Positions 20,199-32,492 of a DNA stretch of 64,000 nucleotides are shown here, in pieces. The stretch is from the NCBI RefSeq assembly GCF_000730285.1, contig NZ_CP007174.1, positions 310,001 through 374,000 of the forward strand, written 5' to 3'. A program made the position numbers and the translations under genes. The stretch is from Candidatus Nitrososphaera evergladensis SR1 (lineage in GTDB: Archaea > Thermoproteota > Nitrososphaeria > Nitrososphaerales > Nitrososphaeraceae). How positions within the stretch are numbered: the stretch's first letter is position 1; every line of letters starts with the position of its first letter. The notes beneath the pieces were generated by a model. That model did no database searches. It was given only the letters and a program-made list of their open reading frames with translations, and was not told the origin of the DNA.

Positions 20199-22316
20199 CT
20201 ATTCCTGTTGTATTATTTTCTCGATTGTGTCCTCTAGTAGATGATGGTGCCTACTCCATCTAGAGCCGTCTTCATCGTCATCATCGTTGTGGCGTTCCGA
20301 CTGGCGATTTCGTCTGTCGTCATCATCATTGTTATTATTATCATGTTGATGATCATGCCTGTCGTCTCGTCCATTCCCGTCTCCCTCCTCATGCTCATCT
20401 CCGCCACCATTATTATTATCATCCCCCTTATTACTATCCCTCTCTTCATCGTCATCATCATTGTGTTCATTCCGATCTCCGTCACTTGCTGACCAATGCT
20501 TCTCCTCTTTTTCACCCGAATTGTCATCATCTGCTTGTTCTTGCTCGTCATCGTTGCTGTCGTTGTTGTCATCATTACCATTATTGCTATTCTGCGTTGC
20601 TTGCGTCGGCTTTTCCTCCTGCACCGTCCCGGTCCCATTATGCGCCGCAGGTGTGGATGCAGCAGCAGTAATAGGAGGAGGCTGCAGCATGCTGCCTCCA
20701 GCCGTACTCCCTGACGCGACGGCTGTCGTGTTGGATACCGCTGCAGTTGCATTGCCTGCAATGGCTTCCTGCGCAGCGACAGCAGCGTTATCGTCTCCTC
20801 CTTCCTGTTCTCCCTCTTCTTCGGGAGGCATCAGCCCATTGGCAATGTCCTCTCTCAGATAGAACATCACCTTCTCATTCTCGTCAAACCGGCCGTCCTT
20901 GAGCTCGCCCATAAACTCCTCAAACGAGACGTCTGTCCCAAACTGCTTTGCAAAGCTGCTGTCCCTTTCAAAGAGGTCTATGGTGAAGAGGTTTGGCGGC
21001 GGGTTGGGAGGAGGCAGGAATATGGTGACGTTTCTGAACACGGGGTCAAACGTCCCATCAAGCGGCTTTGACAGCTGCTGCATGTCCTCATCAGATAGCG
21101 TTTTTCCTCTGAGCGATGGGTCAAGTATCATCGTGTCGACTCCATTTACCATGATGTGGCCCGGGACGTACGAGTGGATGGCCCTCAGTGAAAGATCGCC
21201 TGTAAGGTTCTCCTCTCCGTTCTCCTGCACTTCATGCTCGCTAGGCGCCGCATCAGGAAATGGCTCGTGGAACGTGTCTTCATAGGCTTTTGCCACCATC
21301 TGCAGGTAGACTTGGACGGTCTGTGCTCTTGCAGCTTCCGGACTCATCTTCTTGTCTATCACGAGGTCAAGGTACATCTTGCCTAGCTTTACCGCCACCG
21401 TGTGAAGCGCAATGTTCTCGCTGTTCCTTGGCTCGCCGCCCAGAATTATCTGGTCCTCTCCATGGTCAAGCAATGTACTTAGGTTCAGCCTCTCGTCTTC
21501 AATGCTTCCCGGGTTTGGCCCATCGCGGATGGTGTTGTACAGGTCGTGGGATACAAGCTGCAATACTCCAAGGTCTTCAAGCGTAACCCTGTCGCCTTTG
21601 TTGTATACTCCTAGGAGATTCAGAGATGACCCGTCGGCCGGCAAGGTGATGTCGCGCGTCCTGCTTCTGTCGTTGTTGTCTTGCCAGTGATTGAAGATGA
21701 TGCTGATTGGCGCGGGTCCAGAGAGCGACGCGGCTCCTTCGCCAAGAGAAGCACTTTCGGCCTCCTGGTTTCCAACTGTCAGCTGGTACGTTCTGCCCGG
21801 CGCCCCACTAAATGTAAAGGGCGTCAGCCCAGAGCCTACAGTTTGCAAGCCCGACCTGACAGTCGTCCACATGTGGAGCTCTTCGCCATTTGGCGTCATA
21901 GCATTTACAGTAAGGTTTGGAGGCATGGAGACCTTTTTGAAAAAGGCCGCCAGCGTAGTATCTTCTGAAAGCAATATCGCCTTGGTATTGCTCTTGCTGC
22001 CATCCTGCCAGTGGTCAAATGCATAGCTCTGGCTGTTACTTACCTTGATGGTGTATATCGTGCCGGCTTGTGCTGCAATGGTCAGCGGGGCAAATCCCGA
22101 CTTTATCAGGTTGCCTCCAGCCCGGATCTCCACCAATACGCTGACCGCGTCGCCATCTGGCAGGGAAAACGCGTTTATGGTGAGGCTCTCTGACGTGGCG
22201 GCCTGTGCAGCGCCTATCAGAGGATACGCCGCATAGCCAACAATTAGCAACAACAGCACCCCCGCCACTAACGTATATTCTACTGCTACCTTCCTTGCGT
22301 CTGAATAAAGATTCAT
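20199..22316 (-). CDS. Large secreted or surface protein with Asp/Asn/His-rich C-terminal tail
   Basis: 705 residues. A signal-anchor helix is near the N-terminus (YTLVAGVLLLLIVGYAAYPL). Two repeats of a beta domain follow, each with a FDHWQDGS / FNHWQDNN motif (about residues 50-120 and 140-235), as in surface repeats of the Big or InlB type. The middle region (about 240-500) is not recognised. The last 150 residues are almost wholly Asp, Asn, Glu, His, Gly and Arg, encoded by GAT/AAT/CAT microsatellites. Such tails can bind divalent metal ions. The tail ends with a short helix. It is probably displayed on the cell surface. Confidence 0.8.
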   Translation of the reverse strand: MNLYSDARKVAVEYTLVAGVLLLLIVGYAAYPLIGAAQAATSESLTINAFSLPDGDAVSVLVEIRAGGNLIKSGFAPLTIAAQAGTIYTIKVSNSQSYAFDHWQDGSKSNTKAILLSEDTTLAAFFKKVSMPPNLTVNAMTPNGEELHMWTTVRSGLQTVGSGLTPFTFSGAPGRTYQLTVGNQEAESASLGEGAASLSGPAPISIIFNHWQDNNDRSRTRDITLPADGSSLNLLGVYNKGDRVTLEDLGVLQLVSHDLYNTIRDGPNPGSIEDERLNLSTLLDHGEDQIILGGEPRNSENIALHTVAVKLGKMYLDLVIDKKMSPEAARAQTVQVYLQMVAKAYEDTFHEPFPDAAPSEHEVQENGEENLTGDLSLRAIHSYVPGHIMVNGVDTMILDPSLRGKTLSDEDMQQLSKPLDGTFDPVFRNVTIFLPPPNPPPNLFTIDLFERDSSFAKQFGTDVSFEEFMGELKDGRFDENEKVMFYLREDIANGLMPPEEEGEQEGGDDNAAVAAQEAIAGNATAAVSNTTAVASGSTAGGSMLQPPPITAAASTPAAHNGTGTVQEEKPTQATQNSNNGNDDNNDSNDDEQEQADDDNSGEKEEKHWSASDGDRNEHNDDDDEERDSNKGDDNNNGGGDEHEEGDGNGRDDRHDHQHDNNNNDDDDRRNRQSERHNDDDDEDGSRWSRHHHLLEDTIEKIIQQE

Positions 22317-22541: not shown

Positions 22542-23363
22542 TTACTTTCCGTACCGGCGTACTCTGCGCTGGTACGTCCTGATCGCGCGCATAAGGTCTA
22601 TCTTGCGAAACTCTGGCCAGAAAACGTCCATGAACATGAGCTCGCTGTAGGCGCTCTGCCATATCAAAAACCCGCTCAGGCGCTTTTCGCCCGAAGTCCT
22701 CAGGATAAGGTCAGGCGACGACTGGGGCAGGTGAGACGTGTAGAGACACGCCTCTATTGTTTTTTCATTGATGTCTTCTATCTTTATCTCGTTGTTCTTG
22801 GCCATGCCTGCAATCTTTTTCACGGCATCCACAAGTTCCTTCTGGCCGCCGTACGCAACTGCGATGTTGAGAAACATCTTTTCGTACTCTGCAGTCGCTT
22901 CTTCAAGCTTGCCCAGTATCTCCTGCAGGCTGCGGGGGAGCCTGTGCTTGTCGCCTATTGCCTTTATCTTCATCTGGCGCCTGTGTATCCTCTCGTCATT
23001 GTACAGCCTGTTCAGCTTGACCTCAAGCAGCCTGTAAATGTTTTCGAGTTCTTCGTCATCTCGCTCCAGGTTCTCGTTTGAAAGGATGTAAAGGGTGGTT
23101 ATCCTGACGCCAATATCGTGTATCCAGTTGAGCAGATCCTCTGCCCTGTCTGCGCCGTGGGCGTGACCCATTTCCGTGTCAAGGAAATGGTAGCGGGCCC
23201 ACCTCCTGTTGCCGTCAAGGATTATTGCGATGTGGTTTGGCAGGGGCTGGCTCAATATCTCGTTTTCCAGCCTGCGCTCATAATAGGAATAGATGCGGCT
23301 TGCGTGGAGCAGGCCATCCATCACGGCTCTCCCTCCCCTATCAAAATCCTCGCTTAGGCCCAT
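22542..23363 (-). CDS. uppS: Cis-prenyltransferase (undecaprenyl / polyprenyl diphosphate synthase)
   Basis: 273 residues with the family signature HIAIILDGNRRWAR near residue 44 (the catalytic Asp is in LDGN). The C-terminal block (SSPDLILRTSGEKRLSGFL, then FMDVFWPEF) contains the conserved RTSG and the E-x-R equivalents. It condenses isopentenyl diphosphate onto farnesyl or geranylgeranyl diphosphate to make long cis-prenyl carriers. In archaea these serve as dolichol-type lipid carriers for N-glycosylation, not murein. The next gene downstream on the same strand, across a gap, is an unrelated energy or surface gene. Confidence 0.93.
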   Translation of the reverse strand: MGLSEDFDRGGRAVMDGLLHASRIYSYYERRLENEILSQPLPNHIAIILDGNRRWARYHFLDTEMGHAHGADRAEDLLNWIHDIGVRITTLYILSNENLERDDEELENIYRLLEVKLNRLYNDERIHRRQMKIKAIGDKHRLPRSLQEILGKLEEATAEYEKMFLNIAVAYGGQKELVDAVKKIAGMAKNNEIKIEDINEKTIEACLYTSHLPQSSPDLILRTSGEKRLSGFLIWQSAYSELMFMDVFWPEFRKIDLMRAIRTYQRRVRRYGK

Positions 23364-23920: not shown

Positions 23921-24721
23921 TTAAAACGTCAAAAACACTTCTTCTACGGGCTCTCTCACGCCCATGGCCCGAATGGACTTTTCAAACTCGCGCTTGCCGT
24001 CAGAGACAAGGATCTGCAATCTGCCGCTGCCGCTCTTTTTTGCCATCCTGTAAAAGCTCAGAAACTTTCTCACGTCTTTTGCGACCATCTGGGCAGGGTC
24101 AACAAACCTGACGGTGGGAAGGAGCGCGTTGAGATAACTTTTCACAAACGGCAGGTGCGTGCTTGACAGGGTCATGACGTCTATCTTTTCGTCCACGCCG
24201 TCGCCAAGCACCCTTGACACCACGTCAAACGTCCTGCGCTCGTTTTCAAGGTGCACGCCGTTTTCCACGAGCTCGACTATGGGAGACGCGTTGAATTTTG
24301 TGACAAGTATGTGCTGCGGGACCTCGCGCCGGATCTGGTTTTCAAGCTCTTTGCTGTTTATTGTCCCGGCAGTCGCCATGATCCCGATGTGTTTTTTCTT
24401 GGTCAGCCGCACGGCCTCCTTGAGGGGCGGCCGCACGCCGATTATCGGCATCCCGCCGACCCTCTTTTTGACTTCCTCAAGCACCTGTACGCTTGGAGTG
24501 TTTGACGCCATGACCACGAGCTTGGGCTTGTAGCGCTTCAGGTAGTTTATCGTATTGACCGTTATCTCCAAGAGCTGTTGGTGCGACTTGTTTCCGTAGG
24601 GAAAGTGCGCCCTGTCGGCAAAGTACAGCAGGTCCTCGGCAGGCACCGCCTTTTTCAGCTCGCGTATTATGGAAAGCGAGCCTATGCCAGAGTCGAAAAC
24701 CGCCACGGGGTTGTTGGTCAA
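23921..24721 (-). CDS. Glutamate racemase-family protein lacking both catalytic cysteines
   Basis: 266 residues, the full size of MurI. The fold markers are all present: FDSGIGSLSII with the conserved Asp-Ser, LLYFADRAHFPYGNKS, and VVMASNTPSV. However, the catalytic Cys of the CNT motif is Ser (ASNTPS) and that of the second GCTHYP motif is also Ser (SSTHLPF). A two-base proton shuttle is therefore unlikely in the usual form. It may be a ligand-binding protein, have another activity or moonlight as a gyrase-binding protein, as some racemases do. Archaea of this group make no murein. The gene at 24749 lies 27 bases upstream on the same strand. Confidence 0.88.
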   Translation of the reverse strand: MTNNPVAVFDSGIGSLSIIRELKKAVPAEDLLYFADRAHFPYGNKSHQQLLEITVNTINYLKRYKPKLVVMASNTPSVQVLEEVKKRVGGMPIIGVRPPLKEAVRLTKKKHIGIMATAGTINSKELENQIRREVPQHILVTKFNASPIVELVENGVHLENERRTFDVVSRVLGDGVDEKIDVMTLSSTHLPFVKSYLNALLPTVRFVDPAQMVAKDVRKFLSFYRMAKKSGSGRLQILVSDGKREFEKSIRAMGVREPVEEVFLTF

Positions 24722-24748: not shown

Positions 24749-25123
24749 TTATTGTAGGTTCTCTTTTCTAGACCGCAGTATGCCGGAGACCTTTTTTGCA
24801 AGCACCTCCATCCTGTAGGGCCTCTTTACCCTCACCACGAGCATGGACTTTTCGTCCCTGCCATGGTCAAACAGCAGAACGTCCGAATCGTCGTACCGGC
24901 CTGCGACATAGTGCAGCCTGCCAAGGAACGTTTCATGATTCTTTGCCAGCGACATCATGATAAACCTCTGCATCATCACGCCCTCCATCTCATGAGACCC
25001 GGGCATCCTGATGCCGGGCCGGGCCCTCCATTCCACTATCGCCCCGTCCTGTACAAAAAACACTGCAAGTATGTTCTCATGCAGCCTGGCTATCGCATGG
25101 CATATCTCCTTTTGCTGCTGCAT
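24749..25123 (-). CDS. Hypothetical protein, possible roadblock/profilin-like fold
   Basis: 124 residues. An N-terminal helix (EICHAIARLHENILAVFFVQ) leads into a five-strand pattern, with GRLHYVAGRYDDSDVLLFDHG and SMLVVRVKRPY as the central strands and a C-terminal helix with basic residues. This order fits a roadblock or longin-like fold, but there is no family signature I would trust. It is encoded just upstream of the racemase-like gene, with 27 bases between them, so they are probably co-transcribed. Confidence 0.65.
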   Translation of the reverse strand: MQQQKEICHAIARLHENILAVFFVQDGAIVEWRARPGIRMPGSHEMEGVMMQRFIMMSLAKNHETFLGRLHYVAGRYDDSDVLLFDHGRDEKSMLVVRVKRPYRMEVLAKKVSGILRSRKENLQ

Positions 25124-25278: not shown

Positions 25279-26871
25279 ATGTCTTCTAGACCTATTCTTA
25301 GCAGTTTTGCTCTAAAATTCCTGTCACCGTTAACAACGCTAGTAAAGTCTGCGCCTTTTTCCCGTGTGCTTGGCTCCCGCCGCTTGCTTGCCTTTGCAAT
25401 GTTTGCCCTGATTGCCATGAGTGCGGCCATGCCCAGCGCGTTTGCACAGAGACCGGCGGACAAAAACCTTGACCGGGCCGGCAATGTCGTGCATAAAGTA
25501 GTTGGCAGCGCCCTTGGTTCAGTGGCCGACATTGCCAAGATGCATGATAATGGGCATGATCATTCTAACAACGATGATGATAATAGGACTGACAGGCATG
25601 ATGACGAACGCGATGACGACGGTAGCAGACACAGCGGTGGTAGAAATAGTAGTAACAGCGATGACGACGACAACGGCGGCGGCAATGATGACAGAGGCAG
25701 AAGAGGCAATAATGACGATGATGACGATAATAATAACGATGACAGAGACAGAGACAGCAGCACTAACAATAGTAGTAGCGGGAATGGTAGTAATGATGGC
25801 GGCGGCAGCAGCAGCGGCAACGATGGCGACCGCTGCAATTGCATCGTAATGCGTTTGGACGACGTGCAGGATGAATGGGTCAGAGACGTGCAGCTTGCCC
25901 TCCTGAACCGCCTGATCTCTAACCATGTGCATACGTCTACTGCGATCATAATGAAAGATTTTGGCAATGACTCTGCAATAGTATCAAAAGTCCGGGAAGG
26001 CGGAGATGCAGGCTTGTTTGAATACTCTATCCACGGCTGGGACCATGTCGACTATGCTACCCTTTCCCTTGAAGAGCAGAAAAGCACTCTGGAGAAGGCC
26101 AAGGCCAAACTTGTAGACGTCCTTGGCAAGGATTCTGACATCTTTGTCACGCCCTACAACAACTTTAGCGAAAATACGCTAAGCGCCATGGATCAGCTTG
26201 GGATGACTATCATAAGCTCCGACGAAACCGACCTTTTCCCGGCGGCTCCAAAAGAATCGCCACTCTATCCCAACATTGCGCACATGCCGCAGACGATAAA
26301 TTTTGCAGAGCAGGTTGGAGAGGTGAAGGTCCTCCGTCCCCTTAACGAGATTGTTTCCGCTGTCAGCGCGGACATACGGGACAAGGGGTACGCAGTTCTC
26401 ACACTGCACCCGCAGGACTTTACGCAATACAAGGGTACAGAAGTGCAGAATGAAGTAAACCCCGTGGCGATGCTGCGGTTGGAGCAGTTTATCAAGAGCG
26501 CCAGAGACGCAGGCTTCTCCTTTGCAGGCTTTGAGCAAGCGCTTGAGGATAACCATCCTGACCTTTCGACCATACCTGACAAGTCAAAGCCTTACGAGAG
26601 CGTCCTGACCCCGAGCCCCGGGTCGTCGTTTTCGGTAAACTCGGAGGTTACGGTCACGGGCAGGGCGTTTGATGACACTGCAATAAAATCGGTAGAAGTG
26701 CGGACAACTGATTCGTCGTACCGCGCTGCGTCTACTGACAACAACTTTGAGGACTGGACGGAAACTGTCCAGATGCCGTCAGCACCCGGAACCGTCGACA
26801 TCATTGCCAAAGCGACTGATATCGAGGGGAAACAAACTTGGGTGTACGTCCCAGTCAACGTCACGCAATAA
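25279..26871 (+). CDS. Secreted NodB-like polysaccharide deacetylase with Asp/Asn-rich linker and Ig-like domain
   Basis: 530 residues. The signal peptide (LLAFAMFALIAMSAAMPSAFA) sits near residues 35-55. Residues about 88-190 are a low-complexity Asp/Asn/Gly/Ser linker. The catalytic domain (about 190-420) has motif 1 MRLDDVQD with the Asp pair, motif 2 HGWDH (His-x3-His) and motif 3 TPYNNF, as in carbohydrate esterase family 4. It probably deacetylates surface glycans, using a metal ion. The C-terminal 90 residues are an Ig-like domain (VTGRAFDDTAIKSVEVR, then DIIAKATDIEG) also found in the protein at 30205-31668. Confidence 0.87.
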   Translation: MSSRPILSSFALKFLSPLTTLVKSAPFSRVLGSRRLLAFAMFALIAMSAAMPSAFAQRPADKNLDRAGNVVHKVVGSALGSVADIAKMHDNGHDHSNNDDDNRTDRHDDERDDDGSRHSGGRNSSNSDDDDNGGGNDDRGRRGNNDDDDDNNNDDRDRDSSTNNSSSGNGSNDGGGSSSGNDGDRCNCIVMRLDDVQDEWVRDVQLALLNRLISNHVHTSTAIIMKDFGNDSAIVSKVREGGDAGLFEYSIHGWDHVDYATLSLEEQKSTLEKAKAKLVDVLGKDSDIFVTPYNNFSENTLSAMDQLGMTIISSDETDLFPAAPKESPLYPNIAHMPQTINFAEQVGEVKVLRPLNEIVSAVSADIRDKGYAVLTLHPQDFTQYKGTEVQNEVNPVAMLRLEQFIKSARDAGFSFAGFEQALEDNHPDLSTIPDKSKPYESVLTPSPGSSFSVNSEVTVTGRAFDDTAIKSVEVRTTDSSYRAASTDNNFEDWTETVQMPSAPGTVDIIAKATDIEGKQTWVYVPVNVTQ

Positions 26872-31841: not shown

Positions 31842-32492
31842 ATGACTGGCTTCGACAAGAACTGGAGCAACCAGAGCAAGGCTTCGGCCAGCGATAAACT
31901 GAAAGAGTCCCTGAGACCGCAGGGACCGCTGAAACCGAGGATCGAGACGGCTGTTAACAAGCTTCAGCTGCAGACATCAAAATTAGACACAATGATCACC
32001 AAGATGAACGAGAGGGACGCCGCCCTGTTCAGGAGGGTGGTGGACGCGATGCAGAGGCACGACGCCGACACTGCAAAGGTCCTCTCAAACGAGCTTGCAG
32101 AAGTGCGCAAGATCTCCAAGACGCTTGGAAACGCCAAGATGGCAATAGAGCAGGTAAACATGAGGCTGTCCACGGTGCACGACCTTGGAGACGCAATGGT
32201 GGCGCTTGGCCCTGCAATGGCCTCGATAAAGGGCCTAAAGTCAGGGCTCACACGCTTTATGCCAGGCGCGGACGCCGAGATAGGCAACATGCAGAACCTG
32301 CTCCAAGGCATCATGATGGACTCGCTGCAGGGAAGCGGCATGGGAGTCGAGCTGAACGCAGGCTCGGGCGGCGACATCGACCAGATAATGATGGAAGCAT
32401 CCGCCGTTGCAGAGCAGAGGGTGACAGACAAGTTCCCCTCAATCCCGGTCGGTAGCACGAGGGTGTCTGTGGAGGGACACCAGCAGCAATAA
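31842..32492 (+). CDS. ESCRT-III-like (CdvB-type) protein
   Basis: 216 residues. The helical pattern of an archaeal Snf7/Vps2 domain is clear: a basic first helix (RIETAVNKLQLQTSKLDTM), a long second helix (ERDAALFRRVVDAMQRHDA) and an acidic third part (LQGIMMDSLQGSGMGVELN, with DIDQIMMEASAVAEQRV at the end). It polymerises on membranes, in cell division or vesicle release. In this group several CdvB paralogues occur; which paralogue this is cannot be fixed. A small two-helix membrane gene follows 22 bases later. Confidence 0.85.
   Translation: MTGFDKNWSNQSKASASDKLKESLRPQGPLKPRIETAVNKLQLQTSKLDTMITKMNERDAALFRRVVDAMQRHDADTAKVLSNELAEVRKISKTLGNAKMAIEQVNMRLSTVHDLGDAMVALGPAMASIKGLKSGLTRFMPGADAEIGNMQNLLQGIMMDSLQGSGMGVELNAGSGGDIDQIMMEASAVAEQRVTDKFPSIPVGSTRVSVEGHQQQ

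Follow-up and report, generated by a model that had tools for sequence, protein, structure and literature searches.

A conserved MurI-fold protein of ammonia-oxidizing archaea carries serine at both catalytic cysteine positions of glutamate racemase

A stretch of 64,000 nucleotides of the genome of Candidatus Nitrososphaera evergladensis SR1 (contig NZ_CP007174.1, positions 310,001 to 374,000, designated the window) encodes a protein of the glutamate racemase (MurI) fold that has serine residues in place of the two catalytic cysteines. Comparison with homologues showed that this protein belongs to an old and distinct paralogue family of the MurI fold, from which both racemase cysteines are absent. 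In ammonia-oxidizing archaea (AOA), the protein is probably not the racemase described in databases and in a 2025 paper (PMC12363236). From the residues that are conserved, we give about even weight to a non-racemizing protein that would bind a glutamate-like carboxylate and perform one-sided chemistry at Ser187-Thr188-His189.

The open reading frame comprises 266 codons, starts with TTG, and is devoid of internal stop codons. The coordinates of the two serine codons (Table 1) were counted from the start at position 24721. The translated protein exceeded the cut-off of the NCBIfam glutamate racemase model TIGR00067 (173.4 versus 146.65 bits) and scored 44.2 bits against PF01177 (Asp_Glu_race) in hmmscan. 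It was far below threshold for the PRK00865 models, which are narrower than TIGR00067. Alignment with glutamate racemases of the PDB was possible over the entire length of the protein, and the AlphaFold model (pLDDT 95.5) matched structure 2jfo with a Z-score of 33.8 and an rmsd of 1.9 Å over 259 residues (26% identity). These results indicate that the MurI fold is present over the full length, as originally predicted from the sequence of the window, but the two cysteines of MurI (motifs CNT and GCTH) are not. The replacement of both by serine, which had also been predicted, was verified in the codons, neither of which is TGC or TGT, and in the motifs. The protein contains no cysteine at any position, and therefore no other thiol able to substitute for the missing ones.

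Table 1. Features of the window discussed in the text.
Feature	Position in the window	Strand	Basis or location
MurI-fold protein gene, Ser73/Ser187	23921..24721	-	ORF and translation, TIGR00067 above cut-off, AlphaFold model
Ser73 codon TCA, motif ASNTPS, first catalytic Cys position	24503..24505	-	Codon read-out, alignments
Ser187 codon AGC, motif SSTHLPF, second catalytic Cys position	24161..24163	-	Codon read-out, alignments
124-aa ORF, no Pfam family	24749..25123	-	Just upstream, same strand
UppS-type cis-prenyltransferase	22542..23363	-	Next gene downstream, gap of 561 bp
CdvB (ESCRT-III-like) paralogue	31842..32291	+	Opposite strand, upstream; tblastn, neighbor clusters

The invariance of the two serines in AOA was primarily established by searching 398 genomes of the phylum with the whole protein, a procedure free of motif bias. 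The gene was detected in 68 of the 74 genomes of the AOA order, and 65 full-length and two partial homologues recovered there carried serine at both positions. A single homologue was found outside of the AOA order in the same search, and it harbored both cysteines. Sequences from named contigs of Nitrososphaera, Nitrosocosmicus, Nitrosopolaris, Nitrosotalea, Nitrosopumilus, and Nitrosarchaeum also displayed the Ser/Ser pair, although this second set was selected with patterns including DSGxGS, is thus biased towards the Ser/Ser family, and is used as supporting evidence only. In the combined sets, Ser73 and Ser187 were present in all 136 AOA sequences (130 distinct), as were Asp10, Ser11, Ser15, Thr75, and His189. 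Thr188 was found in 135 of these sequences and Leu190 in 133, with isoleucine in the remaining three. Cysteine was not found at either site in any AOA homologue. Conservation of the Ser-Ser pair in relatives, on which the original prediction of a new role depended, thus extends over 130 distinct sequences, and a new role associated with a conserved double change in a preserved fold is supported.

Ratios of dN/dS calculated for 310 pairs ranged from 0.03 to 0.29 (median of 0.16, all values below 0.30), and the Ser/Ser gene is under purifying selection rather than decaying. Decay of a racemase was ruled out by this result, by the invariance of the serines, and by the phylogenetic tree described below. 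Codon 73 was always TCN and codon 187 was AGY in 140 of 147 cases; these two sets of serine codons are not linked by single steps. Sequencing error, recoding, or a single mutant were likewise ruled out, based on the TCA and AGC codons of the window and on the occurrence of the Ser/Ser state in the 130 distinct AOA sequences. The gene was not found in six AOA genomes of the phylum search. In two Nitrosopumilaceae, it was broken by stop codons or frame changes at the same syntenic place, with intact copies in relatives. The broken AOA copies have serine at the first site, which is the sole site read in these copies. In one assembly, the gene was present twice, with one copy broken on the 5' side; this assembly may combine two strains. 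Absence or breakage of the gene in some AOA indicates that its function is dispensable in these organisms.

A tblastn search of plasmids identified, in Phyllobacterium, a protein annotated as Asp/Glu racemase (motifs ASNAPS and SSTHLPW) that was nearer than any MurI. Bacterial members were also found on genome contigs of Staphylococcus pettenkoferi, Staphylococcus argensis, Staphylococcus marylandisciuri, Bartonella, Bradyrhizobium, Phyllobacterium, Fusobacterium vincentii, and others. They are rare, occurring in 4 of 397 genomes of the order of Bartonella, 3 of 398 genomes of its phylum, and 1 of 398 genomes of the phylum of Staphylococcus. Four bacterial hosts that were searched whole encode a separate Cys/Cys MurI besides the Ser-family member, and a second match besides that member was obtained for a fifth. 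No viral copies were detected in scans of IMG/VR. In the tree, the Ser/Ser proteins were divided from 15 true MurIs by a branch with 100/99 support, and the window protein did not group with the latter enzymes. The bacterial Ser/Ser proteins formed a single clade (100/99). This sister clade, which is patchily distributed, retains Ser187 and usually Ser73, indicating that the serine state is a trait of an old family rather than of one archaeon. The AOA portion of the tree tracks the archaeal families, with a family designated f3 in a basal position (weak support of 86/54). The ancestor shared by the AOA families sampled already possessed a member of the family, and inheritance among them was mostly vertical.

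A comparison of alignment columns with those of MurI revealed that G15S, C73S, A76P, G186S (in most sequences), C187S, and Y190L were switched jointly, whereas Asp10, Asp36, Pro41, Tyr42, Gly43, Glu153, Thr188, and His189 were unchanged. The second glycine of the MurI motif DSGxGG was replaced by serine (DSGxGS or DAGxGS) in all AOA and bacterial members. Ser187 and His189 were invariant over archaea and bacteria, and Leu190 was also found as a trait of the family. Ser11, Thr75, and Thr117, which we take to contact glutamate in MurI (structures such as 1zuw and 2jfn), are retained in AOA, whereas the bacterial branch carries S11A, T75A/V, and T117V/A. Two members from Rhizobiales have alanine at the first site (AANVLS and AANVLT) and PLG in place of PYG, and their genes are located directly behind prs. 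Since Ala73 is combined with Ser187 in these two proteins, the second half-site was never given up, and a two-base mechanism is not what the family has kept.

Enzymes of the MurI fold normally racemize with a pair of thiols that flank the alpha carbon on opposite sides. Two-base racemization by the present family is unlikely in view of the Ser/Ser state and of the Ala/Ser state in some members. AOA retain Asp10, Ser11, Tyr42, Gly43, Thr75, Thr117, Glu153, Thr188, and His189, from which we infer that the pocket would still hold a small glutamate-like carboxylate. Ser187-Thr188-His189, with Glu153, may constitute a one-sided working site in which the serine would act as a proton relay or as a nucleophile. 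Decarboxylation, isomerization, cyclization or hydrolysis, and transfer are examples of reactions that such a site could catalyze. The precedent is arylmalonate decarboxylase, a protein of this fold that uses a single catalytic cysteine for one-sided chemistry. We tentatively propose, with somewhat less than even confidence, that the Ser/Ser protein is a MurI-fold member that works without any catalytic cysteine. To our knowledge, no other MurI-fold member does so. Comparison of gene neighborhoods did not reveal any partner gene conserved over the family that would name a pathway. If the protein has a reaction of its own, it would represent a function that is conserved throughout the AOA order, is undescribed in the literature searched, and has a directly testable active site.

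A purely binding role would account for the same conservation. The protein could be a pseudoenzyme acting through another protein as a non-catalytic sensor or regulator of a glutamate-like carboxylate, in relation to nitrogen status. The disappearance of the catalytic thiols with preservation in AOA of most of the positions that contact the ligand in MurI is consistent with this proposal, as is the presence of potential regulators upstream from the gene (an AsnC/Lrp-like ORF of 100 amino acids in two loci and a DtxR-like regulator in Nitrosocosmicus). However, the invariance or near-invariance of Ser187-Thr188-His189, combined with the tolerance of position 73 for alanine, is more reminiscent of a working residue than of a passive pocket. 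In addition, conservation of a partner gene was not observed, and the bacterial branch has altered the pocket at residues 11, 75, and 117. We consider a pseudoenzyme rather unlikely on these grounds.

Another reading is that the protein functions as a glutamate or aspartate racemase with serine in the role of cysteine and enables AOA to draw nitrogen or carbon from D-Glu, in line with a published proposal. The protein from a single-contig genome of 1,645,259 bp, which we take to be that of Nitrosopumilus maritimus SCM1, contains the motifs ASNTPS and SSTHLPF. The glutamate racemase of N. maritimus has been said to have the necessary catalytic residues, and use of D-Glu by AOA has been proposed (PMC12363236). 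The preserved fold and pocket and the score above the TIGR00067 cut-off agree with this published proposal, but the catalytic residues on which it is based are contradicted by the Ser/Ser state of every AOA sequence, including that of the 1,645,259-bp genome. In the fungal enzyme OpaE, from the same superfamily, the C90S substitution leaves 4.8% of the activity, and at most 0.3% is left by C199S or by the double substitution (PMC12661438). Serine mutants of a relative are thus nearly dead, two members of the family have alanine at the first position, and activation of the serines by an Asp10/His189 pair would be chemically hard. A serine-based racemase, including the slow racemase considered in the original prediction, is therefore improbable.

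The surroundings of the gene differ between lineages. In N. evergladensis, the 124-aa ORF is a possible co-transcribed partner; it also adjoins the gene at one further locus of Nitrososphaera. The distance from the Ser/Ser gene to the uppS gene that follows it is 43 to 85 bp in eight additional loci of this genus. The cdvB paralogue is divergently oriented at a distance of about 115 bp in Nitrosopumilaceae and the f3 family, where cobalamin genes also adjoin the Ser/Ser gene; in Nitrososphaera, these cdvB and cobalamin genes are located 1 to 9 kb upstream, cdvB being shifted by about 7 kb in the window. In most AOA, the divergent partner of the cdvB paralogue is the Ser/Ser gene, and the promoter region is possibly common to both. 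The fact that this locus is common to three families indicates that the gene was present there in their ancestor, and the general synteny of the region makes the neighborhood better evidence of descent than of function. The Ser/Ser gene is followed by genes for a HyuA-like protein, Prs, and RNase Z in Nitrosocosmicus and its sister clades. The prs gene, encoding ribose-phosphate pyrophosphokinase, was found next to or near the Ser/Ser gene in six loci of archaea and Rhizobiales (at 5.0-8.8 kb of the locus in one of them), and its recurrence in Nitrososphaeraceae and Rhizobiales hints weakly at a link with PRPP or nucleotide metabolism. The window also encodes a secreted-looking protein of 705 residues with a long low-complexity tail rich in Asp, Asn, and His (positions 20199-22316) and a protein of 530 residues that has a signal-like N-terminus, a segment rich in Asp and Asn, and, from visual inspection only, a part resembling a polysaccharide deacetylase (positions 25279-26871).

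These associations could mean that the protein is a partner or regulator of a neighboring process, namely cell division with CdvB, synthesis of the isoprenoid carrier with UppS, or a process involving the HyuA-like ATPase or Prs. The divergent cdvB gene, the position of uppS in Nitrososphaera, the HyuA-prs-RNase Z arrangement, and the proximity of prs, which adjoins the gene in two Rhizobiales and lies in its vicinity on a Phyllobacterium plasmid, all go in this direction, but every neighbor is lineage-bound and the cdvB region is syntenic anyway. Several genomes with the Ser/Ser gene have no HyuA gene, one genome that lost the Ser/Ser gene does have it, and prs was not seen in two further Proteobacteria. 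HyuA was rejected as a functional partner for lack of co-occurrence, and a search of four genomes did not detect HyuB. More generally, none of the candidates considered as partners (cdvB, cobalamin genes, uppS, HyuA, DtxR, and prs) was conserved over the family, and a role in a neighboring process appears quite improbable.

Inhibition of DNA gyrase, an activity known of some bacterial MurI proteins and mentioned in the original prediction, is very remote because a PF00521 search of the complete genome detected no gene of the GyrA/ParC family, whereas the control search was positive in 12 of 14 genomes. Profile searches of this kind can miss weak families, as PF01177 was missed in the genome of N. 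evergladensis itself, and isolated negative results were weighted lightly; PF00521 is long and strongly conserved. MurD was not found in the complete host genome either, leaving both a murein role and gyrase inhibition without a target.

Among known systems, the MurI/RacE enzymes (TIGR00067, COG0796, PDB 2jfo, 2gzm, and 1zuw) are similar to the window protein in the full-length fold, in Asp10, Tyr42, Gly43, Glu153, Thr188, and His189, and in most ligand contacts. The window protein differs by Ser/Ser instead of Cys/Cys, by G15S, A76P, G186S, and Y190L, by its location on a separate branch, and by a host in which no MurD was found. In the L-Asp/Glu racemase YgeA of E. coli, the N-terminal Cys is replaced by Thr and the C-terminal Cys is kept; this enzyme (PDB 5ell and 5elm) shares the superfamily fold (Z of 14.3) and belongs to a different subfamily. 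In arylmalonate decarboxylase, the N-terminal Cys is a Gly and the C-terminal Cys is again kept. The latter enzyme, which is no close sequence relative of the window protein, is a superfamily member that does not require two cysteines and carries out one-sided proton chemistry (PMC4996985), but its single C-terminal Cys corresponds to Ser187 in the window protein. The AOA 'GLUR', reported to occur throughout AOA and to be almost entirely missing from other Nitrososphaeria (PMC12363236, mSystems 2025), belongs to the same protein family as the window protein; our results confirm this distribution but not the claim on catalytic residues, since every AOA sequence examined here has serine at both catalytic sites. 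No description of the Ser/Ser state of the AOA protein was found in the literature searched. AOA rank with the most abundant organisms on Earth, and the gene is in use to infer consumption of D-glutamate, an inference built on catalytic residues that are absent from the AOA protein. As the protein passes a curated racemase model, annotation pipelines will repeat the racemase error.
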